Source of the DNA: a virus
Virus record (IMG/VR): IMGVR_UViG_3300037504_000445
Span: 1 to 40,330 of that record
Direction: 5' to 3' (one strand)
DNA: 40,330 nucleotides
Position 1 is the first letter of the stretch; every line of letters starts with the position of its first letter. Shown here piece after piece: positions 6,516 to 35,057 of the stretch. The position numbers and the translations under genes are program-made. The notes under the pieces are model-generated. The model was not told the origin of the DNA. It did no database searches and saw only the letters and a program-made list of their open reading frames with translations.

Positions 6516-6575
6516 TGGCCGAGTCAGCCTCTTGAGCCCCATGGAGGGGGCCGGTGAGGCGGAAGGAGAAGAACA

Positions 6576-6950: not shown

Positions 6951-6959
6951 CGTCAAGGT

Positions 6960-6981: not shown

Positions 6982-7018
6982 GAACATCAACCGATGCGGC
7001 CCACGAGAGGCGAGACGA

Positions 7019-7495: not shown

Positions 7496-7504
7496 TTGGG
7501 GGCG

Positions 7505-8341: not shown

Positions 8342-8344
8342 CCC

Positions 8345-10941: not shown

Positions 10942-11596
10942 CGCACTTGTGGGCGCCGGGAGCGGGTTGCTCGCCTCCGGCGGCAATCCCATCGGAGCCG
11001 CGGTCGGTGGCCTCGCGGGGGCCCTTGGCGGTGGCGACCAGACACAGCGGACCACGCGACAGTTGCGCCCGTTCAGCCGGAACGAGCGCCGCGTCGTCGA
11101 GAAGATCCTGGCACAGTATCCTGGCGTGATCGAGGGGATGAGCCGCGGGGAGCGCGACGCCCTGGCCCAGGAGTTCGCGGCCATGATCGAGGAGGAGGGG
11201 CTGGAGCAGGTGGAGCGCACGTTCGACCAGGCGCGAACGGGGATTCGCCAGACGATGGCGCGCACCGGCGGCGGTCCGTCGAGCATCATGTCCTACCAAA
11301 TGGGTGAGCTTGGCCGGCAGGAGGCCACCGCCCGCGCCGGGGTCGGCCGCCAGGCGCGCCTTGCTGGTGAGCAGATCGCCGGTCAGCGCGTCGCCGAGAA
11401 CATGAACCGCTCCCAGACGCTGGCTCAGGCGCTGTCCAACATGCACCAGATTCGCGCCGTCGGCGCCGGGAGCACGACCACGATCCCGAACACGAACCCC
11501 CTGGGCCCGGCGTTCGGCATGATGGGGTACGCCATCGGCGACCCGGAGAGCGCGTTCAACCAGAGTAGCCTCGGGGACATCAACCTTTTCGAGTAG
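10928..11596 (+). CDS. Putative internal virion (ejection) protein A
   Basis: This 222-residue protein begins with an Ala/Gly-rich hydrophobic segment, residues 2-36 (GLFDALVGAGSGLLASGGNP), followed by a long helical part rich in E, Q and R. The N-terminus resembles ejection proteins such as T7 gp14, which enter the host envelope and line a channel for DNA. Its order, directly after the tail tube genes and before two large internal proteins, matches the gp14-gp15-gp16 order. It overlaps the GNAT-like gene by 14 bases. Function is inferred from order and composition. Confidence 0.6.
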   Translation: MGLFDALVGAGSGLLASGGNPIGAAVGGLAGALGGGDQTQRTTRQLRPFSRNERRVVEKILAQYPGVIEGMSRGERDALAQEFAAMIEEEGLEQVERTFDQARTGIRQTMARTGGGPSSIMSYQMGELGRQEATARAGVGRQARLAGEQIAGQRVAENMNRSQTLAQALSNMHQIRAVGAGSTTTIPNTNPLGPAFGMMGYAIGDPESAFNQSSLGDINLFE

Positions 11597-11611
11597 CAAG
11601 GCGGTGCCGCC

Positions 11612-13294: not shown

Positions 13295-13308
13295 CGCTAG
13301 GAGACGCC

Positions 13309-16300
13309 ATGGGCGAGAAGCTCGATCCCGCAACCATCGCAGAACTCCAGGCCATGGAGTCCGCCGGCGCTTCGTCTGTCCGGCCCAAGCTGGGCTCCGC
13401 GCGCAAGCCGCGCGCGAACGCGGTTCCGCCGAGCATCATCGCCGAGTTGGAGCGAGTCGAGGCCGCCGGGATGTCCGCCGTGGACACCAGCGCGCCGGCG
13501 TACAAGGCCAAGGTCGCCCTCGCCAACGCGCAGAAGGCGCATGAGCGCGGGTTCACCGACCACCTCGCCAACGCCGGCAAGTCGTTCGTCGGCGCGCTTG
13601 CTTCCATCGCCCCGGACGTGCTTCAGTTCGCCGGGTCCGCCTCTGCGTATCTCGGCGCGCAGAACGTCGGCGAGGCGATCCAGCAGTCGGGCGCGTATTT
13701 GGCTCGCGAGATCGACGAAGCGTTCGGAGTTGAGGACCCGACTCTCGTGGACAAGTTCGCCAGCGCCGGCGGGTTCATGCTCGGTTTGCTCCTTCCTGGC
13801 TCGAAGGTGGCCCGGGCCGGGCAGTTGCTGTCCCGCGGCGCCCCGCGAGCGGTTCAGGGCCTTGCCACGGCGATTCTCGGCGGCGCCGGAGCGGGCGCCC
13901 TTGAGGCGGCCGCGGAGGCCGGCGACCAGGTCGAGCGCAAGGTCCGCGAAGGAATGGACCCGGACCAGGCATTCGAGGATGCGTGGAGGGCGTTCGGGCC
14001 GAACGTCGCTGGCTCCACCATCACGAACCTCCCCCTATTCTCCGGCCTGGGCCGAATCGCCAAGGCGTCCGTTGAGGCGCTGACCGAGGGCGGCCAGGAG
14101 ATGTACCAGGGCTGGCTCGACCAGTGGGTCATGGATGGAGCCGAGGGGGGCTTCGCGCGCGGGTTCGGGAAGACGGTCCAGGAGAATTGGGACACGCAGT
14201 GGGAGGCCGGCGGAATCGGCGGAACGGTCGGCTTCGTCGCCGGGCTGATTCTTGGCCGGAAGACCGGCCGGTCCTTCGACGAGTCGCTGGCCGAGAAGGG
14301 CGGAGACGAGGCGGGGCGGCGCGTCGCCAAGCTGCGCGACGATGCGGCCGAGATGTCGAACGAGGACTTGATCCAGGCGATCAGTCAGATCCAGGCGGAG
14401 GCCCTGGGTGGTGCGGCGGCCCCGCAGGCCATCGAGCACTACGGCGTGCTCATGGAGGAGGCTTCATACCGTCTGGGCGACCAGGCGATCCGCGCGCAGT
14501 CCACGTCCAAGCTCAAGGACATGGCGCGCCACTTCGACGAGAACGCACCGAACCTGAACCCTTCGCAGCAGGGCGTCTACGCCTTCACGGTCACCGAACT
14601 CTATGCTCGCGGAGAGATTTCCAAGGCCGAGGCCGCCATTCACCTCCAGAAGATCGGGATTCCGGAGGGCCGCGTCGATCTCGACAAGATCGAAACCCGC
14701 GAGACGCAGCAGGTGGCCACCCGGGTGAAGCCGCTTCGCGGCCGCTGGGTCGTCGAGAACATCGACACTGGAGAGGCCCTGGCGTCCTTCGACAACCATG
14801 CGGACGCGGTCATGCACATGGAGGGGTTGCAGCGCGGGAGCGTCTCTCACGGCGGCGCAGAGGCCGCCAGGCGGTCCCCGCAGCCGCGGGACCCGGCTGC
14901 ACCCGAGGCCCAGGGCGGGCCGGTCGCGGGGCCCGGCGGCGCGACTGTCGCTTCCCCGAGCAGCAGCGGGGCGCTCGCCGGCGATCTCCGCGACCTGGCG
15001 AAGCTGGGCGACCTGATCCACAACTTCCCGAACCCGCGCGTCGGCCACCTCATCTGGCGGAACCCGGACGGAACGTGGTCCGTCGTCAACGCCACCGAGG
15101 GCGGCTCGGTCGCCGGCGTGTTCGACACGCAGCAGGAGGCCATCGACGCGGTCGAGAACGAGCCCTACTTCATCCCGAACGAGCGGTGGATGGAGTACTA
15201 CAACAACCTCTGGAAGACGCCCGTTGAAGGGGGGCAGGGGCAGGTCGCGCAGGAGGAGCGCACGGAGGTCGGGGAGGGCGCGCAGGCGCCCCAGGACACC
15301 GAAGGAGCCGGGCAGGCCACGCGCGAAGTGCAGGCCCCGCCGGCCCGCCGTCAGCTTCCGGCGCCGCAGCCTGGACAGCAGACCGCCGAAGCCGAGGAGG
15401 CCATCGAGGGCCAGCCGCCGGCCGGGGAGGCTGCGCCGCAAAGCTGGGCGGAGTTCAAGGAGACTCAGCGCGGATCTGGTAAGTCCGGGCTGAAGCCGGT
15501 GAGCTACTTCCAGGATCTCATCCGCAACTTCGACCCCGTTCTGTCGGATCTCGTTCCGTACATTCTCGGGGACCCCATCACGCTTCCCGATGAGCCGGGC
15601 ACCCAGCCCACGGGCGGAATCGCTTCTCCTGAGGACATGGTGTCGTACCAGGAGGCCGTGGACAAGATCATCGAGTGGGTTGAGAGCAAGCCGAGCACGA
15701 TTCCCACCGGTCTGGCTGAGGTTGCCGAATTCACTCAGATGTTGGCGTTCGCGCGCCCCCTGGGGGAGAGGTCGGGCCCACTGACCGAAGCGGAGCAGGC
15801 CCTCTACATCAGAGTCTTCCAGGAGAAGGTCCCTGGCGCGGGCCCAGGGTGGCCGCAGACTATCATTGAGACGGCACACTCTGATAGGCTTTCTGAGGCG
15901 CCGCTCAGGATCTGGCGCCTCACGAAGCAGGTGGAGGGCTACTTCAAGGCCGACGCCAAGGGCAAGTACGATCAGATGCGGCAGCAGGGCATGGTCCCGA
16001 AGCGCGAGGGTGTTCCCGCGACCGCAGAGGACTTTAGCCCGCTGCCCCCGCCCGAGGGCGGGAAGTGGACCGAGAAGGAGAAGGCCGCCGCGCGGCAGGT
16101 CGCCGAACTGGCCCGAAGGTTCGGCGAAGCCTTGGGCATCGACATTCAGTTCTACTACAGCCGCAAGTCGGACAAAGCCGGCTTTGCTATCAGAGAATAC
16201 AACAGCATCTGGATCAATCTCCAAGCGCAGGAAACGCGACAGAGTCCGCAATATGTGATCGCGCACGAAATCTTCCACGCCCTGCATTACCAGTACCCGG

Positions 16301-19300
16301 CCGAGTTCCAGCAGGTTCTGGAGGACATTAAGGGCAGGGTGCCGGAGAGGATGCGCAGGAGCCTTGGGCGCTTAGGATACACGGCCGATGGCATGGACAC
16401 GGAGGTTGCCGCGAGGCTATTGGATCACCGGGCCCAGGGGGCGGAGTTCTGGTCTGCTGTCGTGGACCGCCTTGGGCCGCGGAAGACGCGGTCGTTCCTA
16501 CAGAAGATCCAGAAGGCGCTCGGTGATGCGTTGCGCGCGGTTCGAACGAGGTACTTGTCCCGCGCTTCCCTGCAAGGCGCCCAGGGCATGGAGGAGGTGG
16601 AGACAGAGGTCATCGACAAGGTCCAGGAGCGAATCCTGGACATGATCGAGAAGCAGCTTGAGCTTACCGGCGAGGCGCAGCAGGCGCGCGAATCCGCGGC
16701 TGGCCTGGCCGAAAGTCTGATCGGAAGGGAGTCCAAGCAGGCGGAGTCCATCCAGGAGAGCGCCCGCGAGGATCTGGATAGTTGGATTTCCCGCGGCCAG
16801 GAGGCCGTCCAGAGCCGGGAGACGAAGTCCGGACTGGTCCGCAAGGGCGGCCGGCGAGCGAAGGCGCTCGCCATGGGTCCGTACATGGACGCGAGCATGA
16901 TTGCCACCTCCGGCATCACGAACATGCGGCAGCTTCGCAGTCTTCGCCAGCGGCTGGAGAAGCTCGCCTTCCAGGCGGACTATACGGGCAACGCGCACCT
17001 GGTTGCCCAGCAGATCAAGGAGTTCCTGGAGTCGCGCGGGGAGGCCATTCACCAGCAGACGGCTAACCGCGAGGCGCGGGCGCAGCGCGCCCAAGATGTT
17101 GTTGACGGAACGCTAAGGATGAGGGAAGGCAAGCCTCTGTCCAAGAAGCACGCCAAGGCTATCCTGAAGGATACCCGCGGCGAACTCCCGTCGCGTTTCG
17201 TGGACTATATCGTGGATGAACTCTATCAGCAGGCGATTCGCTTCGGTGGTCGCGGCCGCACCAACAGGCCCAAGATCAACCCCCATTCGGTCAAGCTGAT
17301 CGCCGTGCATAACGACTATAGCCACATGACGGCACTGAGGACGCAGAACGACACGGCCGTCAAGATGGATCAGAAATGGGAGGATGTCCCGCTCGACGAA
17401 CTGCGGAGGATCAACGAGCAGGCCGCAGAGAGCATCGAGGAGAACGTCCGGGCTCAGGGCGGCAAGGCGGCCGACAGATTCTTCCTCGGGCAGGGGAACA
17501 TTCTTCCGTCGTCCGTTTCGCCGGAGCTATACGCCGCCTACGAGATGTCGCTGGCCGAGTTGTCTCACCGGAACGCCGATCCCTACGGATGGGAGGGCCG
17601 GGGCGCCGAGGCGCAGGGCGGCCAGGGCGGGCCCGTGTTCGGCGAGGATGTCGATGTCTCGAAGGACGTTCCGTTCTACATCCGGGACCCCCGCCCAGAG
17701 CCCACCGAGGCGATGGACGGCCGCGACGTGACGCTCGGCACGATGTTCGGCGGTAGTCAGGACATTCTGGCCAACGCGGCCAGGCGGGCCGGCGACGCAT
17801 CGAAGAAGGCTGTGCTGAAGGCCGAGAAGGCGTTCGCCGGGAGGGATGTCGTAAGGCGGCCGGATGACGGGCCCGCCATGACCGAGTCGCTCGACCTTCT
17901 CGTTCAGGCGCGCAAGAACGCTGCGCGACGCGCTGCGGTGTCCGAGAAGTGGCAGCTTGGCTATTGGGACAAGCTGTACAAGACGCACGTCGATGACCTG
18001 CACGGCCTGAAGGTGGTTCTGGATAAGGGCTTCCGCGAGGTCGGGCTACCGACTATCGACGAGATGCCGATGCTGGAGTCCGCGTACCATACCTTGCGCG
18101 GCGTGGTTCGCTCATGGAACGCCTTCGCCGACCGCTTCATTCAGGGCGGCGTTCGGAAGTTCACCAACCCGAACGAGATGCTCAGCGACCGCGGCCTTGG
18201 CGAGATCATGAACGACGAGAAGTACGAGATCGCCAACAACTACGACCAGTTCGGAGAGTACCTGAAGGCGAAGCGTTTCGTCGCCATGGGCAAGGAGCAG
18301 CGCTACGCGAAGCGTCTCGGAACGCCGGAGGCGCGGAAGCGCCTGCGCCTCTCGCAGGCGGTGGTGCAGGAGGCCGAGGCGAAGCACCCGGCGTGGGCCG
18401 AGGCTGCCGGGGAGTTGCACAACTACGCGAACGGGCTCCTGGATTACCTCGTGGACACGGAGATGATGACCGCAGAGGAGGCGGCGAGGATCAAGGAGTC
18501 GGCCGACTTCTACGTTCCGATGAACATCGCCCCGGACCTGCGGAACCCCGGCGCCTTCAGCACGTCGCCGGGCAAGGGCATCCTCCAGCACAAGCCGGTG
18601 AACGAGTTCAAGCGGCTCGTCGAGGGCCACGAGATTTCGCACCCGCTCGAAAGCCTGGCGGCCGCGACGTATCAGATGGTCAACGCGGCCCACATGAACA
18701 TGGGTCGGCGCCGCGTGGCGCAGGCGGTGGCCGAGATCACGTCCATCGACCCCGAGCTTGCCCCGTACATGGGCGAGATCCTCACGGTCGATGACTTCCG
18801 CCAGCCGATGACCAGGACGCGCGGGGAATTGGAGGCCGCCGCCGGAACGAAGCGCCGCCGCAGGTCCGCCGTGCGCCGGAAGCTCAAGGAGTGGGAGGTT
18901 GACGAGGACACGATCCAGGAGGTCCTGGAGGCGTTCGATGATGCTGGCGACGTGATCGGCAACCAGCACAAGAAGCTCTGGTACGTCCAGCTTGAGTTGA
19001 AGAACAACATGGTGGCGTACTTCGACAAGGGCGAGTTCAAGATTCTGAAGATGAACAACCCGGATATGTACGAGGCGTTCCATGCGATGACCGAGAAGCA
19101 GCACAACGCCGTTCTGTCGATGACCGGCAAGCTCACTCGGATGCTCCGCTCCGGCGTGGTTCTGGGCCCGGAGTTCGCCGTCCGGAACCCGATCCGAGAC
19201 ATCTTCTCGGCGTCCGTTCTGGCCGGCAAGGCCATTCGCACCCCCGCGGATGCCGTCAGGTTCCTTGGGCATTGGGGCAAGGGCCTTGCGGCCGCCATGC

Positions 19301-20793
19301 GGCAGAACGAGTTGTACGATCAGTGGGTGATGAGCGGCGGCGCCAACGCCGACCTGGTCGCGCTCGACCGGGAGACGATGGGCCTGCGCGTGCGCCGCCA
19401 GCTTCTGCGAGGGAAGAAGCGCGGATTCGCGAAGTTCCTGGCCCAGCATCCGCTGACGGCGATGCGCGCGTTCTCCGGAATGACGGAGGCCGCGACGCGC
19501 GTGGCGGTGTTCCGGGCGGAGTTGAAGGCGAACCTGGCCGACGGGCTGCCGATGCGCGAGGCGCAGGTGCGGGCCGGCATGGAGAGCCGTGAGGCGAGCG
19601 TGGACTTCTCCCGCCGCGGCGACTTCGGGGCGACCATGAACCAGCTTCAGCCCTTCTACAACGCAGCGCTCCAGGGAACGGACAAGCTGGTGCGCGCGCT
19701 GGTCCGCGGTTCGCCCGCCCAGCGCCGGGCTGCCGCGATTCGGGCGACCGTGCTCGTCACGGTCCCGAGCCTCATCCATTCTGCCCTGTTCGGCGACGAC
19801 GAATGGCACAAGCGCCTGCCCAGGTACCAGAAGAACATGTACTGGAACTTCAACCTGGATGGGAAGAACCCCCACGGGCGGATCCTGCGAATCCCCAAGC
19901 CGTTCGAGCTTGGCATGATCTTCGGTGCCCTGCCAGAGCGGCTCATCGAGTACATTCGGAAGAACGACCCGCACGCCGTCGATGGCTGGCTCGCGCAGTT
20001 CGTGGATGTGACGGCCCCGCTGAAGCTCAGCGAGGTCGTTCCGCCGGTGGTGGCGTTCTACAACGCCAGCAGGAATTGGGACGACTTCCGCAACAGCGAG
20101 ATCGTCAAGGGCCAGCTTCAGAAGCTGCCCGGCAACTTGCAGTACACGCCATCCACTTCGCCCGCCGCGCGGGCGCTGGGAGCGGCGTTGCCCGGCGACA
20201 TCTCTCCGCTGAAGATCGACTTCTACGTTCGCAGCGCGTTCGGCGGGGTGGGGCAGATCGCGGCCGACATCGCCAGCGCCGGCGTGTCTCTGGTCAAGCC
20301 GAGCATGGCGGAGCACAGGATGGGCGGGCAGACCGTGGCGGGGCCGATCACGGACTCCTGGCCGGTCGTTCGGGGGTTCATTGAGGCCGGGCCTCACGCC
20401 TTCGACACGAACAGCCAGGACTTCTACAGCCATCTCGACGAAGCGACGACGGCGTTCACTCTCTACAACCGGGCCCGGAGGGGCCTGATTCCGCCGGACG
20501 CGATGGCTAGGGAGCTTGCGGATCGCCTGCACTGGCTGGCCCTCTACAAGCCGCTGTCGAAGATCAGCCGCGACGTGTCGAAAATGACGGGCGGGATCAA
20601 GACGCTTCAGGCGATGCCGGACGCCACTCTCTCTGACGAGGAGAAGCGCGAGAGCGTCAACTCGCTAATCGAGGCGAGGGCGCAGCTTTACCAGTCCGCC
20701 GCAGAGCAGACCCGGAAAATCCTTTACGACGATGAATTGATGCGGCAACTTGAGGAGGCCGGCCAGAAGATGGTCGAGCAATTGACGGAGTGA
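13309..20793 (+). CDS. Giant multidomain ejection protein with zinc-metallopeptidase motif (polyvalent type)
   Basis: At 2,494 residues this is the largest gene here. It follows the gp14- and gp15-like genes, the position of T7 gp16, so it is probably packed in the capsid and injected. Residues about 148-205 and 258-320 are hydrophobic/Gly-rich and may contact membrane. Around residue 986 is HEIFHALHYQYP, an HExxH zincin motif, with a downstream DTEVAARLLDHRA segment whose Glu could be the third zinc ligand. The C-terminal third has a FAVRNPIRD motif (about 1957) and a helical section with LHSALFGDDEW-like sequence (about 2150-2170), resembling the large polyvalent protein domains described by Iyer, Aravind and colleagues. 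No lysozyme-like transglycosylase motif was seen. Start: AGGAG before ATG. Confidence 0.8.
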   Translation: MGEKLDPATIAELQAMESAGASSVRPKLGSARKPRANAVPPSIIAELERVEAAGMSAVDTSAPAYKAKVALANAQKAHERGFTDHLANAGKSFVGALASIAPDVLQFAGSASAYLGAQNVGEAIQQSGAYLAREIDEAFGVEDPTLVDKFASAGGFMLGLLLPGSKVARAGQLLSRGAPRAVQGLATAILGGAGAGALEAAAEAGDQVERKVREGMDPDQAFEDAWRAFGPNVAGSTITNLPLFSGLGRIAKASVEALTEGGQEMYQGWLDQWVMDGAEGGFARGFGKTVQENWDTQWEAGGIGGTVGFVAGLILGRKTGRSFDESLAEKGGDEAGRRVAKLRDDAAEMSNEDLIQAISQIQAEALGGAAAPQAIEHYGVLMEEASYRLGDQAIRAQSTSKLKDMARHFDENAPNLNPSQQGVYAFTVTELYARGEISKAEAAIHLQKIGIPEGRVDLDKIETRETQQVATRVKPLRGRWVVENIDTGEALASFDNHADAVMHMEGLQRGSVSHGGAEAARRSPQPRDPAAPEAQGGPVAGPGGATVASPSSSGALAGDLRDLAKLGDLIHNFPNPRVGHLIWRNPDGTWSVVNATEGGSVAGVFDTQQEAIDAVENEPYFIPNERWMEYYNNLWKTPVEGGQGQVAQEERTEVGEGAQAPQDTEGAGQATREVQAPPARRQLPAPQPGQQTAEAEEAIEGQPPAGEAAPQSWAEFKETQRGSGKSGLKPVSYFQDLIRNFDPVLSDLVPYILGDPITLPDEPGTQPTGGIASPEDMVSYQEAVDKIIEWVESKPSTIPTGLAEVAEFTQMLAFARPLGERSGPLTEAEQALYIRVFQEKVPGAGPGWPQTIIETAHSDRLSEAPLRIWRLTKQVEGYFKADAKGKYDQMRQQGMVPKREGVPATAEDFSPLPPPEGGKWTEKEKAAARQVAELARRFGEALGIDIQFYYSRKSDKAGFAIREYNSIWINLQAQETRQSPQYVIAHEIFHALHYQYPAEFQQVLEDIKGRVPERMRRSLGRLGYTADGMDTEVAARLLDHRAQGAEFWSAVVDRLGPRKTRSFLQKIQKALGDALRAVRTRYLSRASLQGAQGMEEVETEVIDKVQERILDMIEKQLELTGEAQQARESAAGLAESLIGRESKQAESIQESAREDLDSWISRGQEAVQSRETKSGLVRKGGRRAKALAMGPYMDASMIATSGITNMRQLRSLRQRLEKLAFQADYTGNAHLVAQQIKEFLESRGEAIHQQTANREARAQRAQDVVDGTLRMREGKPLSKKHAKAILKDTRGELPSRFVDYIVDELYQQAIRFGGRGRTNRPKINPHSVKLIAVHNDYSHMTALRTQNDTAVKMDQKWEDVPLDELRRINEQAAESIEENVRAQGGKAADRFFLGQGNILPSSVSPELYAAYEMSLAELSHRNADPYGWEGRGAEAQGGQGGPVFGEDVDVSKDVPFYIRDPRPEPTEAMDGRDVTLGTMFGGSQDILANAARRAGDASKKAVLKAEKAFAGRDVVRRPDDGPAMTESLDLLVQARKNAARRAAVSEKWQLGYWDKLYKTHVDDLHGLKVVLDKGFREVGLPTIDEMPMLESAYHTLRGVVRSWNAFADRFIQGGVRKFTNPNEMLSDRGLGEIMNDEKYEIANNYDQFGEYLKAKRFVAMGKEQRYAKRLGTPEARKRLRLSQAVVQEAEAKHPAWAEAAGELHNYANGLLDYLVDTEMMTAEEAARIKESADFYVPMNIAPDLRNPGAFSTSPGKGILQHKPVNEFKRLVEGHEISHPLESLAAATYQMVNAAHMNMGRRRVAQAVAEITSIDPELAPYMGEILTVDDFRQPMTRTRGELEAAAGTKRRRRSAVRRKLKEWEVDEDTIQEVLEAFDDAGDVIGNQHKKLWYVQLELKNNMVAYFDKGEFKILKMNNPDMYEAFHAMTEKQHNAVLSMTGKLTRMLRSGVVLGPEFAVRNPIRDIFSASVLAGKAIRTPADAVRFLGHWGKGLAAAMRQNELYDQWVMSGGANADLVALDRETMGLRVRRQLLRGKKRGFAKFLAQHPLTAMRAFSGMTEAATRVAVFRAELKANLADGLPMREAQVRAGMESREASVDFSRRGDFGATMNQLQPFYNAALQGTDKLVRALVRGSPAQRRAAAIRATVLVTVPSLIHSALFGDDEWHKRLPRYQKNMYWNFNLDGKNPHGRILRIPKPFELGMIFGALPERLIEYIRKNDPHAVDGWLAQFVDVTAPLKLSEVVPPVVAFYNASRNWDDFRNSEIVKGQLQKLPGNLQYTPSTSPAARALGAALPGDISPLKIDFYVRSAFGGVGQIAADIASAGVSLVKPSMAEHRMGGQTVAGPITDSWPVVRGFIEAGPHAFDTNSQDFYSHLDEATTAFTLYNRARRGLIPPDAMARELADRLHWLALYKPLSKISRDVSKMTGGIKTLQAMPDATLSDEEKRESVNSLIEARAQLYQSAAEQTRKILYDDELMRQLEEAGQKMVEQLTE

Positions 20794-20800: not shown

Positions 20801-21709
20801 ATGGCCACGATTACACGGGTTCGGGACGACGAGATCCAGGCCGGGAAGGTTGGTCGCGCCGGCGACGTGTCGGCGGAGCTTGACAACATCATCGGCGCCT
20901 TCAATGTGAACGACGGCCGGATCGAGACGAACGAGAATGAGATCGACACCCTCCAGGGCGAACTGTCGTCCACGCAGGGGGACGTATCGACGCTCCAGAC
21001 GGAGATGAACTCTGCGGAGTCTCGGATCACTACGAACGAGGGCGACATTCTCGTTCTACAGGGGGCGTCTTTGACGCCGCAGGATGTCGAGACGGGCTCG
21101 TTCACTCTCCTCCGCTCGTTCGGCGGCCTCGTGGTCATGAACGCATCCGGTTTCCGCCCGACCTGCAACCTGCCAGAGCCGGACAACGCTGGCGGGTTCT
21201 CGCCCGCGAACCGCTGGCTCATCGTGTGCCGGTCCCTCGAAGGCGCCATCGTCCAGAGCAACTATTTCGGTCCGGCGACCGTCGGCAAGGAGATCCTCCT
21301 GCTGGACGGCGACGCCTGCATGGTCACGGTCATGGACGACCCGGTTCTGTCTACACGGCGATGGAACGCCGTTGTTCTGCGGGCGGACGTGCGGCGGTTC
21401 GACTGGTATCAGATGTCTGCTGGCGAGGTCGTGAACGTCAACCCGAATCAGTATCTGAACTTCGTGGCATCGAATGGCGGAACGGTCAACCTTCCGCCCA
21501 TCGACGGACAGGATGAGATGATTGGCCTGGAGGTCACTGTCCACAACCTGTTCAGCAACTTTGTTGATGTCAACGTCAACAACGGCTCCACGGAGGACAT
21601 CATCGGGAACGGTACCTTCGAGGGAAACACCAAGTCTCTCTCTGGGTACAGGTCGATCACGTTTCGCGCTGGACCCAACGGGAACTGGTTCATTCTTGGA
21701 GGTAGCTAG
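20801..21709 (+). CDS. Tail fibre or tail spike-like protein
   Basis: The 302-residue product begins with a short globular head (residues 1-40), then a coiled-coil stretch of repeated T-N-E / L-Q heptads (about 40-85: ETNENEIDTLQGELSSTQGD), then a beta-rich domain ending YRSITFRAGPNGNWFILGGS. A head that joins the tail, a trimeric coiled coil and a beta-rich tip is the usual plan of fibres. It follows the ejection proteins, as the gp17 fibre does in T7. The ending VTVHNLFSN ... ITFRAGPNGNWFIL resembles the C-termini of many phage tail fibre or structural proteins. The receptor is unknown. Confidence 0.75.
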   Translation: MATITRVRDDEIQAGKVGRAGDVSAELDNIIGAFNVNDGRIETNENEIDTLQGELSSTQGDVSTLQTEMNSAESRITTNEGDILVLQGASLTPQDVETGSFTLLRSFGGLVVMNASGFRPTCNLPEPDNAGGFSPANRWLIVCRSLEGAIVQSNYFGPATVGKEILLLDGDACMVTVMDDPVLSTRRWNAVVLRADVRRFDWYQMSAGEVVNVNPNQYLNFVASNGGTVNLPPIDGQDEMIGLEVTVHNLFSNFVDVNVNNGSTEDIIGNGTFEGNTKSLSGYRSITFRAGPNGNWFILGGS

Positions 21710-21711
21710 TC

Positions 21712-22155
21712 ATGATCCGTCGCCTCATTCTCTCTGTCGGTGGCATGTACCTGGCCGCGGCCGTGTGCGTGGTCGCCCTGGCGGCCGCCTCGCTCGCCAT
21801 GGCCCAGACGGGTCCGCGCATCCAGGCCATCGAGGTCGATGTCAACTCGACCGGCGAGGGCTCCGGCACGGGCGTCCTTCTGGGCGAGCCCATGCGCGAC
21901 ATCCGGGCACGAACCGATTCGGACGCCTACATCAAGGTCATGCAGAAGGCGCAGAACGTCGGCGTGTGGAGCGGAAACTGGCTCTCGTTCCCCGCGGACA
22001 ACGATGACCCGACGGGCGCCACTGAGCTGGCCGGCTACCCGGTGTACGCGGCCGATGGCTGGAACTACTTCGGTGGGATGCGGGCAGACAGCCTCTACGT
22101 CTACACGACCAGCGGCACCGCGACCGTGGTCATCCAGGGGGTGAACGGCCGATGA
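21712..22155 (+). CDS. Sec-signal-bearing small beta protein in the fibre region
   Basis: The 147-residue product begins with two arginines and a hydrophobic stretch of about 25 residues that ends in ALAM-type residues, with a likely signal peptidase site after AMA (residue about 31, before QTG). The mature part is beta-rich and Gly/Asp/Thr-rich and closes with SLYVYTTSGTATVVIQGVNG. The overlap of its end with the next ATG (ATGA) shows coupling. Preceded by GGAGG overlapping the fibre gene stop. A Sec signal is unusual for a virion protein made in the cytoplasm. Function is unknown, possibly an exported or envelope-associated protein. Confidence 0.68.
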   Translation: MIRRLILSVGGMYLAAAVCVVALAAASLAMAQTGPRIQAIEVDVNSTGEGSGTGVLLGEPMRDIRARTDSDAYIKVMQKAQNVGVWSGNWLSFPADNDDPTGATELAGYPVYAADGWNYFGGMRADSLYVYTTSGTATVVIQGVNGR

Positions 22156-25100
22156 GGAAGGTGCTAGCTTACGCCGTTCTGGCCATTCTGGTTGGAACGG
22201 CGCTCGCCTCTGGGCCCTGGGGTGATGACCGGGCAGGCTGGCCTGGGTCGTGGGGTGAGATGTGGCCCGCCGGGGCGGGGTCGTCCGGTGGCCCCACATA
22301 CTTCGGGCCGGTCTACACGGGGGGCATCTGGGGGGCCGGCGGTCAGATCCATGCGATGGCAGCCGCGGGCCAGCGCCAAGTCCTCCTGGCCACGGACAAC
22401 ACCTACTCGGTGGTTACGGCGACAAGCGGCGATTCCTGGATCACGACCACGGAAGGGCTTGCGACGCACGAGGCAGCGCCGAACAAGCACGAGAACGGCG
22501 CCACGTATGTGGAGAACAGCGCATTTTCCGGGTACGTCACGGCGGGGCCGCAGGGCTTGATGGCGATGGAGTCGGTTGGCGGGGCGGCCCCCTGGGTCAA
22601 CCTCACGCCGATCAAGGATGGTTACTGGTTCACGGACGACCTGGGGTTTGCTCAGCGCAAGGTCGCGATCTCGTTCGGTGACGTGGATGCCGTCGGGTCG
22701 TGCTTGATCGCCGGCGCGGGTCGCATCCGCGTCAGGTCGGAGAATAACTACGCGAACTCCTGGTACCCGAACGGGCTGGATCAAGCGAGTGGTCCGGGGC
22801 TCGACCCGCCGAAGGGGAATCACACCCTGTGGCGCATGTACTGGAACGACCCGAACGGTGAGGAGGTTCGCCCGTTCCCGGGCCTGGGGGACTTCGGGGC
22901 GGTCTACTCCCTCGACGCCGAGATTGTCGCCGGCGACACGCTGGTGGCCATCGCGAGCACCGACGGCCTGTTCCTCTGGAGCAGCGCGGACCAGGACACG
23001 ACGGACCTCACCGGATACGGAGCGGCGACGCCCGCCGGGAGCGACGCCTTCGCGTTCACTTATGACGCCGGCGGCAGCGCGACGGGGCAGATGTGCTACT
23101 CCATCGAGTTGACCGAGCGCGGGACCGTGTACGCTGGCATCCGGAATTTCGACGGAACCTGGGGATGTGAGTCCGGCGCGTACAGGATGCACGACATAAC
23201 CAACCCTTCGACGTGGCGCTGGGTCGGGAATAACGCTTCCGTCTCTCCGCTGAACGTTTCGATGCTGGACTACGCCGCCGGTGGCGATGCGCACGGCGCG
23301 CACGTCAGCGTCCTTGATGGCGGCGCCGCGGCTCCGGATACGCTGTTCATGGCCTACGACGACGCCTACTACAGCAATTCGCGTCGCCTCGGGCTTGTGC
23401 GGGCGAACGCCCCCTATGACGACGCCACTCACTACGATCAGACCTGGGGGGCGATGTTCTGGGTTTGGGGATTCTGGAACAACCCCACCGACCGGAACCT
23501 CTTTGATTCTCCTGGCGGCCTGGACATGTGGGGCTGGGACACGGGGATGCCCTCGACCACCGCCCCGGCTCTCCCGGTCGAGGGCGGGGTCATTTACTAC
23601 CATCCGCACACCAGTGTCTGGCGAAGCGACGATTACGGCGAAAGCTGGGTTAGCGTCTACACCGACAGTCTGCCGGGCGGCTATTACCGCAGCAAGGGGT
23701 TCCACCAGACTGGAGCGCAGTCCGCCTCCCTGAACGAGCTTCCCGACGGCTCGCTCGTCTATTCGACTGTGGATCAGGGTGCGGTGGAGACGAACCCGGA
23801 GAGAACCGGGACGAAGGCGATCCACCCGCCGACTGAGTCCACTTCGTCGCACACGCTCGGAAGCGCTTGGACCCTGGGGGCGGCCGAGACGCAGGTCGTC
23901 GATGACTGGCAGGGCACCGGGCGACCGGCGACGTTCCATATTCTTGGGCGGGTGAAGGACTTCGCGAACCCGGGCCGCATCGCGCTTTACCACGACGACA
24001 ATGGCAATGGGACGAGGGAGTGGTACTCCGAGCCGTCGCTGGAGTGGGGCGTCGCGAACCCGGCGAATGAGCATGGGCCGACCTGCTTCGAGTGGGATGG
24101 CTATGCCCTGTACTCCGCCGGCCGACTCTACGATGGCGTGGTGAGCGAGTGGGGCACCAGGGACGGGGCGTTCGTCTACTACCAGACGTTCGATGGCTCG
24201 TCCTGGAGCGCGCCCGTCCAGTGGATGGAGGGCGATCTTGCCGGCTACGCGCAGGGCGGAGCCGACATCGCTACGCCCCGCGGGTTGGCCGTTTCCGGCG
24301 GCAGGCTGTGGCTGGCGATGACGGGCGACGCGAACGGGGATGGCGGCGTCTTCTATCGGGCTCCGGACGACGCGGGGTGGACGCAGGTCATTGGAAGCAC
24401 TACGTCCCCCGACGACTACGATGTCGAGGGGATCGAGGTTTATGGCGACGAGGTCTATGCCTTCACTCGCGGCGACCGCGGGCGCGGGCACGCCACGATT
24501 CTGCACTGCGCCGATGCACTGAACGCCCCGGCCACCTGGGCGAAGCTGGGAAACAACAGTTCCGCGGACGTGATGCTGACCATCGGCGAGAACATCACTG
24601 GTGAGGAATACTACGGAACGACGGCGCTGGAGCAGTCCCGGAGGTACTCCGTTTCTACCGTGGCGGTGGATCAGAAGGGGTGGGTCTGGTACGGGGCCGA
24701 TGGCGCAGCGACGAACGTCTACCACAAGGCCGCCGGGCTGTACTACTACGATGGCAGCAACTTCGTGGACATCGACGACGTGGCCGACGCCTCGTTCGTT
24801 GGGTCTGGATACATTTCGCGCGACCTCCTGGTGGACGAATCCGCCGAGGAGCTTTGGTTCGGCCAGGCGTGCGGGCTGAGCCGGATCGACCTTGCCGGGG
24901 TTCCAGGATGGAGCGACGCCCCGACCGTCGGTATTCCTTCGCCCACCGGAACCAGCGGGGCTCCCGGCTGGGGCGGCGGCCCGATGTACGCCTGGGCTCG
25001 CGACAGCGACGGTCAGGTGACGAGCCTTCCGTCGAACACCGATGTGGTCGATGTGGCAACCGCATCGTTCGCTGGCGTGGCGCTGACGAGCGACGGCGAG

Positions 25101-25796
25101 GTACTGTTGTGGGGCGACACGGCCGGCCTGGCTGACAGCAAGAACCTCCCCTCGTCGAACACCGGGTACCTCGACGTTGCGGCCGGAAACACGCACATGT
25201 GCCGGGTCCGGCCGGATGGTGGCATTGAGTGCTGGGGTGACGATGACCAGGGGCAGGCGTCACCGCCGACGGTGAAGACCTACAACAAGATCACCGCGAG
25301 CCTGGACGCCAACCTCGGAATCGCAGATGACGGGACCATCGACTATTGGGGGCTCACGTCTCACGGCCAGCAGAACGTTCCGGCGGGAACGAATTGGGTG
25401 GACATCGCCACCGGCGGCTACCACTGCCTTGCGCTTGATGACGCTGGCAACATCGAGGCGTGGGGCCGCGACGACTATAGCCAGGTGACCAATACTCCGA
25501 CGGGGTCGGGCTACCTTGACATCGGCGCTGGGACCACGTTCTCGGCAGCCATCGCGAGCGACGGGTCCATCGAGGCGTGGGGCCAGGATGATTTTGGCCA
25601 GGTCACGGACGCCCCGGCGGGCACCGGCTACGTTTACCTCGCCGTGAACCGCGACTTCGCCCTCGCGGTGCATGAGGACGGCTCCATCGTTGGCTGGGGC
25701 GACAATCAGTTCAACATCGAAACCGGCGTTCCTGGAACGTCGATCTGGAAGCGTGCAGCGACGGAGGGCCGCTGGGCGGTCGCAATCGAGGAGTAG
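22152..25796 (+). CDS. Large secreted propeller protein: Asp-box region plus seven RCC1-like repeats
   Basis: This 1,214-residue protein starts with a Sec-type signal (RKVLAYAVLAILVGTALA, likely cut before SGP at about residue 20). The long middle is beta-rich with a sialidase-type Asp-box SDDYGESW (residues 492-499). From residue 945 to the end, seven repeats of about 35-45 residues carry a [A/C/L/Y/G]WG or AWA signature (AWARDSDGQV, LWGDTAGLAD, CWGDDDQGQA, YWGLTSHGQQ, AWGRDDYSQV, AWGQDDFGQV, GWGDNQFNIE), as in RCC1-like seven-bladed propellers. Such domains bind protein or sugar. It could be a receptor-binding or secreted protein. I see no catalytic motif and no known homologue comes to mind. 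Confidence 0.78.
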   Translation: MRKVLAYAVLAILVGTALASGPWGDDRAGWPGSWGEMWPAGAGSSGGPTYFGPVYTGGIWGAGGQIHAMAAAGQRQVLLATDNTYSVVTATSGDSWITTTEGLATHEAAPNKHENGATYVENSAFSGYVTAGPQGLMAMESVGGAAPWVNLTPIKDGYWFTDDLGFAQRKVAISFGDVDAVGSCLIAGAGRIRVRSENNYANSWYPNGLDQASGPGLDPPKGNHTLWRMYWNDPNGEEVRPFPGLGDFGAVYSLDAEIVAGDTLVAIASTDGLFLWSSADQDTTDLTGYGAATPAGSDAFAFTYDAGGSATGQMCYSIELTERGTVYAGIRNFDGTWGCESGAYRMHDITNPSTWRWVGNNASVSPLNVSMLDYAAGGDAHGAHVSVLDGGAAAPDTLFMAYDDAYYSNSRRLGLVRANAPYDDATHYDQTWGAMFWVWGFWNNPTDRNLFDSPGGLDMWGWDTGMPSTTAPALPVEGGVIYYHPHTSVWRSDDYGESWVSVYTDSLPGGYYRSKGFHQTGAQSASLNELPDGSLVYSTVDQGAVETNPERTGTKAIHPPTESTSSHTLGSAWTLGAAETQVVDDWQGTGRPATFHILGRVKDFANPGRIALYHDDNGNGTREWYSEPSLEWGVANPANEHGPTCFEWDGYALYSAGRLYDGVVSEWGTRDGAFVYYQTFDGSSWSAPVQWMEGDLAGYAQGGADIATPRGLAVSGGRLWLAMTGDANGDGGVFYRAPDDAGWTQVIGSTTSPDDYDVEGIEVYGDEVYAFTRGDRGRGHATILHCADALNAPATWAKLGNNSSADVMLTIGENITGEEYYGTTALEQSRRYSVSTVAVDQKGWVWYGADGAATNVYHKAAGLYYYDGSNFVDIDDVADASFVGSGYISRDLLVDESAEELWFGQACGLSRIDLAGVPGWSDAPTVGIPSPTGTSGAPGWGGGPMYAWARDSDGQVTSLPSNTDVVDVATASFAGVALTSDGEVLLWGDTAGLADSKNLPSSNTGYLDVAAGNTHMCRVRPDGGIECWGDDDQGQASPPTVKTYNKITASLDANLGIADDGTIDYWGLTSHGQQNVPAGTNWVDIATGGYHCLALDDAGNIEAWGRDDYSQVTNTPTGSGYLDIGAGTTFSAAIASDGSIEAWGQDDFGQVTDAPAGTGYVYLAVNRDFALAVHEDGSIVGWGDNQFNIETGVPGTSIWKRAATEGRWAVAIEE
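24984..25793 (+). repeat. Seven RCC1-like coding repeats
   Basis: The 3' end of the propeller gene contains seven repeated units, each about 35-45 codons, centred on a Trp-Gly motif. The two units near 25455 and 25570 are also close at the DNA level (ATCGAGGCGTGGGGCC shared), which suggests recent duplication. Confidence 0.7.
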
Positions 25797-25799
25797 GGC

Positions 25800-26153
25800 A
25801 TGAAGATCCGGCACATTCCGATGTTCGTGGCGTCGATTCTGATGCTTGGCGCCCTCGCCGTGGGCGCCCAGGACGATGGGTTGACGGCAAGCTGGACGCC
25901 GCCGACCGAGGGAACGCCGGTGGAATACTACGTGTTCAAGATGATGGCTGGCGGCGACACGGTGATGACCGAGACGACGCCCGACACGTTTCTGGTGATC
26001 GACTACCCCATCGAGTACGGCGTGGCCTACACCGCCGTGGTGATGGGCGTGGACGCCAAGGGCCGCCGCGGGCCGTGGTCTGAGGAGTCGGATCCGTACA
26101 TCGACGCCGGTCCTCCGGGGCAGTGTGGCCCCGCGGTCTGGTCGTTCCAGTAG
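25800..26153 (+). CDS. Sec-signal fibronectin type III-like protein
   Basis: The 117-residue product has a signal peptide (residues 1-23, likely cut after VGA before QDD). What remains is one domain of about 90 residues with the pattern of fibronectin type III: LTASWTPPTEGTPVEYYVF (strands A to C with the Trp), an internal YTAVVMGVDAKGRRGPWSE (Tyr/Trp strands E to G, with S-E at the end). Such domains bind carbohydrate or protein. It starts four bases after the propeller gene stop, so the pair is probably cotranscribed and may act together outside the cell. No cell-wall anchor is visible. Confidence 0.7.
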   Translation: MKIRHIPMFVASILMLGALAVGAQDDGLTASWTPPTEGTPVEYYVFKMMAGGDTVMTETTPDTFLVIDYPIEYGVAYTAVVMGVDAKGRRGPWSEESDPYIDAGPPGQCGPAVWSFQ

Positions 26154-26207: not shown

Positions 26208-26570
26208 ATGGGCGACAACCCGGCAGGCAACGGAGGGCAGCGATTCGCTGACCTGATGCGCGCAGTGGAGCGCATCGACGGCAAGGTGGACGTTCATGGC
26301 GAGCGCCTCGCGCGGATCGAGGCGCACCTGGATCATCGGCCGTGTGCGGTTCACGACAACCTACTGCGGAAGCTGGAGAGCCGACAGGAGCGCATCGAGG
26401 GAGAGGTCCAGAGCGTCGAGGAACAGACGCAGCGACGGCACGAGGAGAATCTGGGCACCAAAGAATTCCAGGCAAACGTGAGCGTGGCGAAAATCGCGGG
26501 CCTGTCCACCGTAATCTCGGCGGCAGTGTCCGCGATTGGTTTATGGTTCTCGAACAAGGGGGGGCCATGA
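26208..26570 (+). CDS. Coiled-coil protein with C-terminal membrane segment (XhlA-like lysis protein)
   Basis: This 120-residue protein has heptad-rich helices (residues about 12-90, LMRAVERIDGKVDVHGERLA) and a C-terminal hydrophobic helix (about 96-116, IAGLSTVISAAVSAIGLWFS) followed by a positive tail. This plan matches XhlA-type holin-associated proteins. It overlaps the endolysin start (ATGA), which fits a lysis cassette. The ATG at 26208 is used; a GTG at 26205 is closer to the AAGAAGGG ribosome site. Its role as holin or holin helper is inferred. Confidence 0.58.
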   Translation: MGDNPAGNGGQRFADLMRAVERIDGKVDVHGERLARIEAHLDHRPCAVHDNLLRKLESRQERIEGEVQSVEEQTQRRHEENLGTKEFQANVSVAKIAGLSTVISAAVSAIGLWFSNKGGP

Positions 26571-27037
26571 TGATAACTCGCTTCTTCGCCCTTCATGAGT
26601 TCGCGTGCCCGTGCTGCGGGTTGGCCGACCCCCACCCGGCCCTCGTTATGGGTCTGGATGAGATCCGGGGGCTTCTGGGCGTTCCGATCTACGTTCACAG
26701 CGGGTCGCGGTGTGCATCCCACAACGTCGATGTCGGCGGGGCGCGGAATTCCATGCACCTGCGCCAGTCGGAGTTCGAGGACTACACCCTGGCCGCCGAT
26801 GTCTCGTGCGCGCGCTCCCTGTTCGAGTTGTTCGACCTGGCCTCCGCGCACAAGTGGTTCGAGGACGGGGGAATCGGCGTGTACTCGAACCCCCCGTTCC
26901 TGCACCTCGACGTTCGCGGTATCACCGGAACGAAGCCGCCGGCGCGATGGGGCGAGATCGCCGGCCGCCGTGTGAGCCACATCGAGGCCCTTGACGACGC
27001 CATCGCGCGCGAGCGAAGTGGGGGGCGGCGTGGCTGA
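26567..27037 (+). CDS. Endolysin, M15-type zinc peptidase
   Basis: This 156-residue enzyme should cut the peptide stem of peptidoglycan at lysis. It shows the M15 (VanY/D-Ala-D-Ala or L-Ala-D-Glu peptidase) zinc site: SMHLRQ with His64, the Asp of YTLAADVS (Asp78) and LHLDVRG with His113; the SGSRCASHN loop precedes these. Cysteines near the N-terminus (FACPCCG, residues 13-19) are common in this phage subfamily and may bind metal. Start ATG overlaps the stop of the preceding gene (ATGA). Whether it is an endopeptidase or carboxypeptidase cannot be told here. Confidence 0.9.
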   Translation: MMITRFFALHEFACPCCGLADPHPALVMGLDEIRGLLGVPIYVHSGSRCASHNVDVGGARNSMHLRQSEFEDYTLAADVSCARSLFELFDLASAHKWFEDGGIGVYSNPPFLHLDVRGITGTKPPARWGEIAGRRVSHIEALDDAIARERSGGRRG

Positions 27038-28376
27038 CAAGAACAGCATCCAGTGCCCGCACTGTCACGACGAGGATGTCGTCAGGCACGCCTCTGGAAG
27101 CCAGCGGGCCCGGTTCATGTGCAAGTCCTGCGGCAGAACGTTCACCATGTGGCTCCAGAAGGACGGGCGATGGGCCCCCAGCGGCCCGCCCCAGGGGCCC
27201 AAGATGGTGGACATCGACGAGCCCGGGTCAGTGATTGAGGGCAACTACGCGGTGGCTATGTCGGAGCCACAGAAGGGCGGGCCGCCCTCGAAGGAGGAGG
27301 TCGTTCGGAAGTTCGGCTTCGACCTGGACGAGTGGGTCATCGAAAAGGCGCGGCCCGGCTACCACGAGATGGGGTGGAAGGACAATTCCGGCGATGGCCA
27401 GAAGATGCCCTTGTACTCGATGAAGGTCTGGCTCGTTCGCGCCGTTCCGGTCACATGCGAGTGGCCGCACATCGAGGGCGCAAAGGTCAAGCCGTGGAAG
27501 CCTGCTGCGTCGGTGAAGACGCGCCGCCAGGCCGGAATCAAGCGGGCCGTCGTCGTTCCGGACATGCACGTGGGGTTCCGGCGGAACCTCGACACGGGCG
27601 ACCTTTCGCCGATGCACGACGTTCGGGCGTGCGACCTGGTGGCGCAGGTGATTCGGAAGCAGCGCCCAGACCTGGTGGTAATGCTGGGGGACAACCTCGA
27701 CCTGCCGGACTGGAGTGACAAGTACATCACGACCCCTGACTGCCGGTGGACAACACAGGCTTCGGTTGACTGGCTTGCCTCGTGGATCATGTCGTGGCGC
27801 CGTTACGCCGAACGAGTTGTTTACCTCGAAGGGAACCACGAGGAGCGCATCCCCAGAAAGATTTGCGGGAACTTCGAGGCCGGGTACGGGCTGCGGCCGG
27901 CGAACAGCCCTGGCGTACACCCGGCGATGTCCGTTCCGTCGCTTCTGGGGCTCGACGACATGCGCATCGAGTGGGTCGGCGAGTACCCCAAGAACAGGGC
28001 GTGGCTGAACAGCCACCTCCGGGCCTACCACTCCCAGAAGCTGGCACAGAACCCGGGCCACACGGTCGGCAAGGCGCTTCAGCACGCCCGGGCCTCGACC
28101 TTGTTCGGGCACTCCCACGTCGTCGAGATGGCCGCCGTCACGGTTCATGCCATGGACAAGATCAGAACCTACGTGGCGGCGTGCTTCGGCACCCTGGCCA
28201 AGCTGGGCGACGATGGGCCGCCGAGCGCCGGCCGAGAGATGGATTGGCAGCAGTGCGTGGGGATCGTAGACTACCAGGACGAGGGACCAGAGTTGTTCCA
28301 GATCCAGCAGTGCTTGATCTTCGATGGTCGCGCGATCATCGAGGGCGAGCTTTACGAATCGGAGGTTTCAGAATGA
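27030..28376 (+). CDS. Metallophosphoesterase with N-terminal zinc ribbon
   Basis: The 448-residue product has all calcineurin-like metal motifs: PDMHVG (Asp178, His180), GDN (Asp221), GNHEE (Asn269, His270) and GHSH (His361, His363). The class hydrolyses phosphomonoesters or diesters with two metals. N-terminally, CPHC (about residues 9-12) and CKSC (about 31-34) form a zinc ribbon, of the sort used for nucleic acid binding, then a charged linker. A DNA or RNA phosphodiesterase or ligand-handling role is possible. The GTG at 27030 overlaps the endolysin stop. Its place inside a lysis region is odd; substrate cannot be determined. Confidence 0.85.
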   Translation: MADKNSIQCPHCHDEDVVRHASGSQRARFMCKSCGRTFTMWLQKDGRWAPSGPPQGPKMVDIDEPGSVIEGNYAVAMSEPQKGGPPSKEEVVRKFGFDLDEWVIEKARPGYHEMGWKDNSGDGQKMPLYSMKVWLVRAVPVTCEWPHIEGAKVKPWKPAASVKTRRQAGIKRAVVVPDMHVGFRRNLDTGDLSPMHDVRACDLVAQVIRKQRPDLVVMLGDNLDLPDWSDKYITTPDCRWTTQASVDWLASWIMSWRRYAERVVYLEGNHEERIPRKICGNFEAGYGLRPANSPGVHPAMSVPSLLGLDDMRIEWVGEYPKNRAWLNSHLRAYHSQKLAQNPGHTVGKALQHARASTLFGHSHVVEMAAVTVHAMDKIRTYVAACFGTLAKLGDDGPPSAGREMDWQQCVGIVDYQDEGPELFQIQQCLIFDGRAIIEGELYESEVSE

Positions 28377-28624
28377 ACGCTCTCGGGAAGGCCGCACAGG
28401 TGGGGAACCGGAAGCTGGTGGCGTTCTACGCCGTGTTCGCTTTCGTCGTCGTCTTCACGCTGGGTCGGGCCCTGATGCCGCTGTGGGTGCCCGGCGTCGA
28501 GCCGCTGGACGACATCCCGAAGCTCGTGAAGGAGATCGTCGTCTGGTCGGTGGGCCTGTTCTTCTTCCACAACGCCGCGTCGAAGTTTTCCCCGGCCGTT
28601 CGGGACGGAGTGGAAAAGTCTTGA
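28373..28624 (+). CDS. Small membrane protein, holin candidate
   Basis: This 83-residue frame overlaps the stop of the phosphoesterase (ATGA). It has two hydrophobic stretches, residues about 16-40 (LVAFYAVFAFVVVFTLGRAL) and about 53-73 (LVKEIVVWSVGLFFFHN), joined by a short loop with Pro and Glu, as in class II-like holins. It sits directly before the spanin-like pair and after the endolysin, the usual order in a lysis cassette. Holin function would be pore formation in the inner membrane at the time of lysis. No sequence signature proves it. Confidence 0.62.
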   Translation: MNALGKAAQVGNRKLVAFYAVFAFVVVFTLGRALMPLWVPGVEPLDDIPKLVKEIVVWSVGLFFFHNAASKFSPAVRDGVEKS

Positions 28625-28905
28625 GCACCTTGAAGTGGATCCTCGGGGCCGTCGGAGTCGTTCTGGCGGCCCTGTTTGGAATGAGGTCGTATTATGAGAA
28701 GAAGCTGGAGGAGGCGGAGGATCGCCACCGGCGCGCGGCGGACGCTGCCGTGGCTGCTCGCGATTCTGCTGCTGCCCTGGGCCACCTTCGCCGAGCCGCG
28801 GACGCCCGAGCCGAGTACCAGGCGGCCCGGAACCGTCCCATTGGAGAGCGTGTCCGTCGGGCTTTACGAGAAGCCCGCAGACGCCTTCGTGAGGGCCGAG
28901 ATTGA
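28621..28905 (+). CDS. i-spanin-like protein (inner-membrane)
   Basis: A TTG at 28621 overlaps the preceding stop (TTGA). The 94-residue product has an N-terminal membrane helix (residues about 4-21, LKWILGAVGVVLAALFG) followed by a charged coiled coil rich in E, R and A (KKLEEAEDRHRRAADAAV), the plan of Rz-type inner-membrane spanins that link to an outer-membrane partner. The next gene begins inside it in another frame, as in Rz/Rz1. The start codon is weak, but the hydrophobic N-terminus lies immediately after it and GGAG precedes. Confidence 0.6.
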   Translation: MSTLKWILGAVGVVLAALFGMRSYYEKKLEEAEDRHRRAADAAVAARDSAAALGHLRRAADARAEYQAARNRPIGERVRRALREARRRLREGRD

Positions 28906-29185
28906 CAGCCTGGCCCGATGGCCCAAGGATGAGCTTGCGGCCGCCCTGTGGGCGCTTGAGGCCCGCCTGAGCGCCGCCCGCCTGGACTCCGCCCTCGCCG
29001 CCTCCCGAGCCCAAGCCACCATCGACACCCTCAAGACCCGGCTGTGGCGCAAGGATCTGACCATCGAGAGCCTCGAACGGGGGCAAAAAGGCACGATGGA
29101 GGCGATCTTAGATGCCCTGGACTTCACCCTCGGCGCCGTGGTGGCCACCATCGCCATGTTGTTGAGCGGCAAGATGTTCGACTGA
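28694..29185 (+). CDS. o-spanin/u-spanin-like protein with signal peptide, embedded start
   Basis: The ATG lies within the preceding gene in another frame, 212 bases of overlap, the arrangement typical of Rz/Rz1. The 163-residue product has a very basic N-terminus then a hydrophobic core and probable signal peptidase site (WATFA before EPR), a Pro/Thr-rich segment (EPRTPEPSTRRPGTVP), a coiled coil (about residues 70-125) and a C-terminal hydrophobic helix (LDFTLGAVVATIAMLL). There is no cysteine, so no lipobox; this differs from lambda Rz1. An N-terminal signal plus C-terminal membrane helix recalls one-piece spanins such as T1 gp11. The topology is a prediction by eye. Confidence 0.55.
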   Translation: MRRSWRRRRIATGARRTLPWLLAILLLPWATFAEPRTPEPSTRRPGTVPLESVSVGLYEKPADAFVRAEIDSLARWPKDELAAALWALEARLSAARLDSALAASRAQATIDTLKTRLWRKDLTIESLERGQKGTMEAILDALDFTLGAVVATIAMLLSGKMFD

Positions 29186-34700: not shown

Positions 34701-35024
34701 ATGGATGAGATCCAGAAGATTCTGAAGACGGGAAGGCGTGGGACGTACACGGTTTCGGTCACGGCGAAGGTCTTGGTCAGCGGCCAGAACATCGGCGAGC
34801 ACCGGAACAGCATCAGCTTCGACGGCGAGCCCGGCGGCCAGTCGTCCAACCTCGGCGACGCTGATCACATCGGGAGCATGATGCCCGCCGGCGAGGCGTG
34901 CGCCAAGACGGTGATGCAGGCTGCGCTGAGCAAGGCGCACGGCCACATCCAGAAGGTGGCGGCCGACCTGTACGAGGAGCAGAACCCCGAGCAGAAGGAC
35001 CCGGAGGCGGGCCGCGAGGAGTAG
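34701..35024 (+). CDS. Small protein of unknown function, 107 aa
   Basis: This 107-residue protein ends the plus-strand DNA operon. I chose the ATG at 34701, preceded by GGGAGAGTG at 34688-34696, which directly follows the previous gene. It has a beta-rich first half (RGTYTVSVTAKVLVSGQNI) and a helical second half (CAKTVMQAALSKAHGHIQKV) with an acidic end (EEQNPEQKDPEAGREE). No motif I recognise. The next gene, 290 bases away, lies on the opposite strand, so this is the end of the operon. Confidence 0.65.
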   Translation: MDEIQKILKTGRRGTYTVSVTAKVLVSGQNIGEHRNSISFDGEPGGQSSNLGDADHIGSMMPAGEACAKTVMQAALSKAHGHIQKVAADLYEEQNPEQKDPEAGREE

Positions 35025-35057
35025 GCGCGCGCCTTGCGTGCCTGAGACTCTCCGGGT

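Follow-up and report, generated by a model that had tools for sequence, protein, structure and literature searches.

The window, that is, the whole 40,330-base virus record analysed here, has a G+C content of 65.5%, and its predicted gene content reads as that of a short-tailed phage. Three genes (genes 1–3) are tightly packed between a tail fibre gene and the lysis genes. The features that bear on them are as follows.

986-2413: terminase
2413-4470: portal or head-tail adaptor
5412-6515: major head protein
13309..20793, + strand: internal-virion-type protein of 2494 aa with an LPD38 domain (Pfam LPD38 E=5.9e-36; PHROG 9854 E=3e-62)
20801..21709, + strand: tail fibre of 302 aa with a coiled coil and without a signal peptide (signal peptide score -3.4; weak PHROG tail matches)
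21712..22155, + strand: gene 1, small beta-type protein of 147 aa with a predicted Sec signal peptide (score 12.3; ribosome-binding site GGAGG)
21712..21804, + strand: predicted signal peptide of gene 1, MIRRLILSVGGMYLAAAVCVVALAAASLAMA, followed by QTG (sequence; score)
22152..25796, + strand: gene 2, secreted-type propeller protein of 1214 aa with a predicted Sec signal peptide (score 12.0; RCC1_2 E=9.7e-21)
22152..22208, + strand: predicted signal peptide of gene 2, MRKVLAYAVLAILVGTALA, followed by SGP (sequence; score)
25026..25709, + strand: RCC1/BLIP-II-like propeller region of gene 2, residues 959-1186 (Pfam)
25800..26153, + strand: gene 3, 117 aa, a single fibronectin-III-like domain with a predicted Sec signal peptide (score 11.0; fn3 E=0.0031; ribosome-binding site AGGAG)
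25800..25868, + strand: predicted signal peptide of gene 3, MKIRHIPMFVASILMLGALAVGA, followed by QDD (sequence; score)
26208..26570, + strand: protein with a coiled coil and a C-terminal hydrophobic segment, adjoining the lysis cassette (sequence; weak PHROG matches)
26570..27037, + strand: endolysin, M15-type peptidase (Pfam Peptidase_M15_3 E=1.9e-14; PHROG endolysin E=2.8e-21)
28373..28624, + strand: holin-like small membrane protein (N-terminal hydrophobic segment, score 11.1)
28694..29185, + strand: spanin-like protein with an N-terminal signal or transmembrane segment, a long helix and a C-terminal transmembrane segment (score 11.1; topology from sequence)

Downstream of the endolysin lie a metallophosphoesterase, lysis-type membrane proteins and then recombination genes. 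The metallophosphoesterase (26991-28376) sits inside the lysis region and carries an N-terminal transposase-type zinc ribbon; a gene for a metallophosphoesterase-like protein stands at the matching position in G005, a capsid relative described below. An AAA ATPase-type protein is encoded at the right end (38108-39460, - strand; PHROG 249, E=1.7e-31), and ARAGORN predicts a tRNA-Ser with anticodon act at 34965-35057 (- strand). An antisense reading frame of 1010 aa over gene 2 (22164-25196, - strand) is probably a by-product of the high G+C content.

The initial annotation had claimed that genes 1–3 start with Sec-type signal peptides and overlap or abut, and both points hold. We scored the N-termini of 35 window genes with a home-made signal peptide score built on n-region charge, the h-region and the -3/-1 rule, and, for comparison, scored 14 E. 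coli-type signal peptides, 194 spurious reading frames and shuffled N-termini in the same way. Genes 1, 2 and 3 scored within the range of the E. coli-type signals (9.5-12.4), whereas the 194 spurious frames peaked at 9.6; of the shuffled N-termini, 0.06% attained a score of 10 and none a score of 11, so that chance N-termini are ruled out. The score is bimodal in the window: five genes stand at 11 or above and the next at 5.2, the other two high scorers being the lysis-type membrane proteins at 28373 and 28694. All three N-termini have the charged n-region, hydrophobic h-region and small residues at -3/-1 of Sec signals, with acceptable cleavage sites at AMA-QTG, ALA-SGP and VGA-QDD, although for genes 1 and 3 the scorer would place the cut a little closer to the N-terminus. 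The hydrophobic stretch of gene 1 is long (about 22-27 residues) and may for that reason remain as an uncleaved anchor. None of the three has a lipobox cysteine at +1, where Gln, Ser and Gln are found, and no transmembrane segment besides the signal passed our filter.

Gene 1 starts 3 bp past the fibre stop with GGAGG upstream, gene 2 starts in an ATGA overlap with the gene 1 stop and has no clear Shine-Dalgarno sequence at its own ATG, and gene 3 follows gene 2 after a 4-bp gap with AGGAG upstream. Wrongly chosen start codons were considered and rejected: gene 1 has an ATG at codon 30 that lacks a ribosome site, the next start of gene 2 past its signal is codon 37, and the in-frame starts just past the three signals lack ribosome sites except for two in gene 3, where codon 28 is preceded by a weak AGGA and codon 41 by GAGG.

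The domain guesses of the initial annotation (beta protein, propeller, fibronectin) fared unevenly. The propeller stood: gene 2 matches RCC1_2 over five stretches with 73.4 bits against a cutoff of 22, and its best match in the PDB is the inhibitor protein BLIP-II (E=2e-17, residues 1026-1195). The repeats are confined to the last quarter of the protein, with only a sub-threshold BNR match elsewhere, and they also account for a match to the PHROG 13857 tail protein (E=4.6e-5). The fibronectin assignment of gene 3 is weak, with 18.1 bits below the curated cutoff of 25; the same domain gives a match to PHROG 31 (E=3.7e-5). Gene 1, with a mature part of about 116 aa and no cysteine, falls into no PHROG or Pfam family and matches no fibre or spike family in PHROG. 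Neither PHROG nor Pfam detected a virion-anchor domain at the mature N-terminus of any of the three. Searched against phage records, gene 2 gave RCC1-repeat matches only and gene 3 gave none, and no sequence relatives of genes 1–3 were found in viral contigs. AlphaFold models were unusable (pLDDT 38 for gene 1 alone, 49 for gene 3 with an alignment).

We then compared the locus with its relatives, which were gathered by the major head protein, with the 2494-aa LPD38-type gene as anchor and its C-terminus used to reach further. In G005 (IMGVR_UViG_3300007511_000075; about 50% major-capsid identity to the window) the large gene is followed by an untagged 205-aa protein in the fibre position and then by proteins of 141, 296 and 581 aa with predicted signal peptides (hereafter tagged). 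In G010 (IMGVR_UViG_3300022664_000063; 47%) it is followed by an untagged 219-aa fibre and then by two tagged proteins, of 129 aa and 604 aa; the longer one has a lower signal score (9.1) and a polysaccharide deacetylase domain (Polysacc_deac_1) just above cutoff. The N-terminus of the window fibre is 27% identical to that of the G010 fibre (E=1e-4 in a single comparison), and the window fibre is a candidate virion-borne fibre. The order of large gene, untagged fibre and run of tagged proteins is thus common to all three genomes while the sequences differ, which indicates that the tags are kept and the cargo changes. For the small tagged proteins found in the window, G005, G010 and locus L026, no common ancestry could be demonstrated. 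A tagged spike-type protein also lies between the head and tail genes in G005 (P0001, 1268 aa) and G010 (397 aa), and L007 holds a fragment of a third, whereas G003, G009 and G001 carry untagged fibres instead. A tree of the head proteins places the tagged genomes within a single supported nine-row set (96/99), in which they nevertheless require three changes; judging from this tree and the three untagged genomes, the signal-peptide trait is gained and lost repeatedly.

Two further export-type signals were seen among these loci. One capsid relative encodes, next to the terminase (L300:6447-6806, - strand), a protein that begins MNRRKFLSTIGLCTASVALS, a Tat-like signal. In L070 a glycine-rich, fibre-like protein of 302 aa with a signal peptide (1916-2824) directly follows a tagged tail fibre. 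The 190 sampled loci contain 1718 plus-strand genes for proteins of 90 aa or more, of which 52 bear a tag and no other membrane-like feature. Tagged genes stand next to each other in 10 pairs, against 1.4 expected from a global shuffle (maximum 7 in 2000 shuffles); a stricter within-locus shuffle gives a mean of 3.94 and a maximum of 10, equal to the observed value, so that the tagged genes clearly cluster when loci are compared and less strongly so inside a locus. Where the zone was in view, 14 of 59 viral loci and 4 of 25 prophages encode a tagged protein of 110 aa or more within 6 kb after the large gene, and not all of these proteins are fibre-like. Disulfides as a reason for export are suggestive at most: cysteine makes up 0.83% of the tagged mature proteins and 0.45% of the untagged window structural proteins, a difference driven by few proteins.

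The tail fibres of dsDNA phages are commonly regarded as proteins of the cytoplasm, and the initial annotation had regarded export as unexpected on this ground. The relatives weaken this premise, because their signal-peptide proteins match tail spike and tail fibre profiles. P0001 is a pectate-lyase-type spike (Pfam E=1.3e-17; PHROG tail spike E=4.8e-28), and tagged proteins in L070 (fibre, PHROG 9017 E=6e-18) and L088 (E=4.3e-8) match tail profiles as well. The homologues of P0001 in the cultured phages P12026, ECOO78, WR01 and GJ44 have no signal and start no more than about two residues away from its predicted mature N-terminus. A second case is P0002, an 819-aa protein of L123, in which a 19-residue signal peptide precedes an anchor domain different from that of P0001. 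This domain is 42-46% identical to the N-terminus of the phiV10 and pelagiphage tail fibres and resembles the tailspike in PDB 8ck1 (E=9e-15). It has matches in 103 phage records, and all of the matches listed begin at query residue 18-20; the phiV10, Greip and ctVRi840 genes start one codon before the alignment. L123 itself has no start codon at the mature N-terminus of P0002. Among 80 further loci with the anchor domain, none was tagged (0/80), so that the method does not detect signal peptides everywhere. Three apparent exceptions (L229, L244 and L280) were rejected, as the stretches matching from before query residue 20 are interrupted by stop codons or fall beyond the gene and are no signal peptides. 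The L123 element (2828-17108), integrated in the MAG of an uncultured delta-proteobacterium, encodes an integrase, a large LPD38-type protein, the tagged tail spike and lysis-like genes. Because it is integrated and no head genes are visible in it, it may be a defective prophage, or else a remnant that the host has domesticated.

It is plain that genes 1–3 encode signal peptides, that they are packed as in an operon and that relatives also have signal-peptide proteins at this position, and the tags look deliberate. Export of proteins 1–3, as the initial annotation predicted, is well supported by their signal sequences and, independently, by the unrelated tagged proteins at the same locus in G005 and G010. 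Sec alone delivers proteins only as far as the periplasm in diderm cells. G010 encodes on its minus strand (L217:7254-7610) a 118-aa protein with a lipobox-like cysteine in its signal, a helical middle and a C-terminal transmembrane segment, which has no family match and reads like a u-spanin; such a protein would imply an outer membrane and hence a diderm host. Release before lysis, which had been proposed together with a single extracellular complex of the three proteins, is therefore unlikely in a diderm host, and the single complex is unsupported.

We tentatively favour, with a probability of roughly 0.45, a reading of genes 1–3 as an exchangeable set within the fibre (host-recognition) cassette, whose products would be exported by Sec, act on surfaces or polysaccharides, be stored in the periplasm and be set free at lysis. 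The proteins would be made late, together with the tail genes, and pass through the host SecYEG; their signal peptides would be cleaved off, and the mature proteins would fold and be held in the periplasm. Lysis would then free them as unbound factors beside the virions, where polysaccharides of the envelope or capsule might be bound or altered by them, so as to keep progeny off debris, for instance, or to open a matrix. The cargo fits action on glycans or surfaces: a polysaccharide deacetylase in G010, a pectate-lyase-type spike in G005, and a BLIP-II-like propeller and an fn3-like domain in the window. Against this reading, the tagged spikes of the relatives keep the domain with which cultured tail spikes begin, and a free factor should have no use for it.

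That anchor domain would be explained if the exported proteins were detachable virion appendages, real fibres or spikes that reach their fold in the periplasm and attach to virions upon cell lysis. The tail profiles matched by P0001, L070 and L088 fit this, as do the L123 signal peptide placed ahead of a phiV10/pelagiphage/8ck1-like domain whose cultured counterparts start at the mature position, and the untagged upstream fibre of the window, G005 and G010 offers a possible dock. Yet spikes kept apart from the particles until lysis should dock inefficiently, L123 is a prophage lacking visible head genes, the tag is rare on the P0002 anchor domain, and genes 1–3 have no such domain. We consider docking of proteins 1–3 doubtful, and we prefer free factors on account of the missing anchor domain and the inefficiency of docking after release. 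The broader proposal, that in a clade of short-tailed phages Sec-routed fibres or spikes join virions at or after lysis, with assembly partly outside the cytoplasm, seems to us unlikely.

Proteins resident in the envelope, which would change the cell surface during infection or lysogeny and so restrict superinfection, would have a precedent in lambda Lom, which has a signal peptide and sits among tail genes (PMC12309495). A possible lipobox in one G010 protein (LPAM_1 E=0.07) and the potential anchor of gene 1 point the same way. Genes 1–3, however, lack lipoboxes and further membrane segments, the cargo consists of propeller, fn3-like and lyase-like domains and not of a barrel, and the genes belong to the late stretch from tail to lysis, which makes this reading improbable. 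That the N-termini are hydrophobic pegs or leftovers of captured host exoproteins, unused for export, would suit the likeness of the domains to bacterial secreted proteins (BLIP-II) but is highly improbable, since signals without need should decay and charge, hydrophobic core and small -3/-1 residues are kept in at least seven unrelated proteins from three genomes.

A recurrent, exchangeable Sec-tagged set that includes tagged spikes would point either to free surface factors acting at lysis or to appendage assembly outside the cytoplasm, and either outcome, if true, changes the reading of fibre cassettes in uncultured phages. The open-access literature searched did not describe signal peptides on proteins of fibre cassettes, which is weak evidence of absence. 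The closest cultured counterparts are gp20 of the Marinomonas phage P12026, ECOO78 gp42, the tail spike of the Serratia phage WR01 and the phiV10 tail fibre, all with an N-terminal anchor domain. They occupy the same cassette position as the proteins of G005, G010 and L123, with homologous anchor and beta-helix or fibre domains, and the latter differ by the added Sec signal peptide; window genes 1–3 have no detected anchor domain in common with them. The propellers of the BLIP-II/RCC1_2 type resemble the C-terminal propeller of gene 2, which has about 940 further residues, and inhibitory activity is not implied; an RCC1 protein of Marinobacter phage PS6, unlike gene 2, has no signal peptide. 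Late or lysogenic phage genes are known to use the host Sec route in fOg44-type exported endolysins and lambda Lom (PMC6116005, PMC12309495), but these are lysins or outer-membrane proteins, whereas the window holds a run of fibre-cassette proteins. A tail-spike-like protein bearing an export signal is also found in WceF of Pantoea stewartii, an exported enzyme with a tailspike fold that is encoded in an EPS gene cluster and acts on exopolysaccharide (PMC7949094); WceF is bacterial and carries a Tat signal, whereas the genes described here are phage genes with Sec signals.
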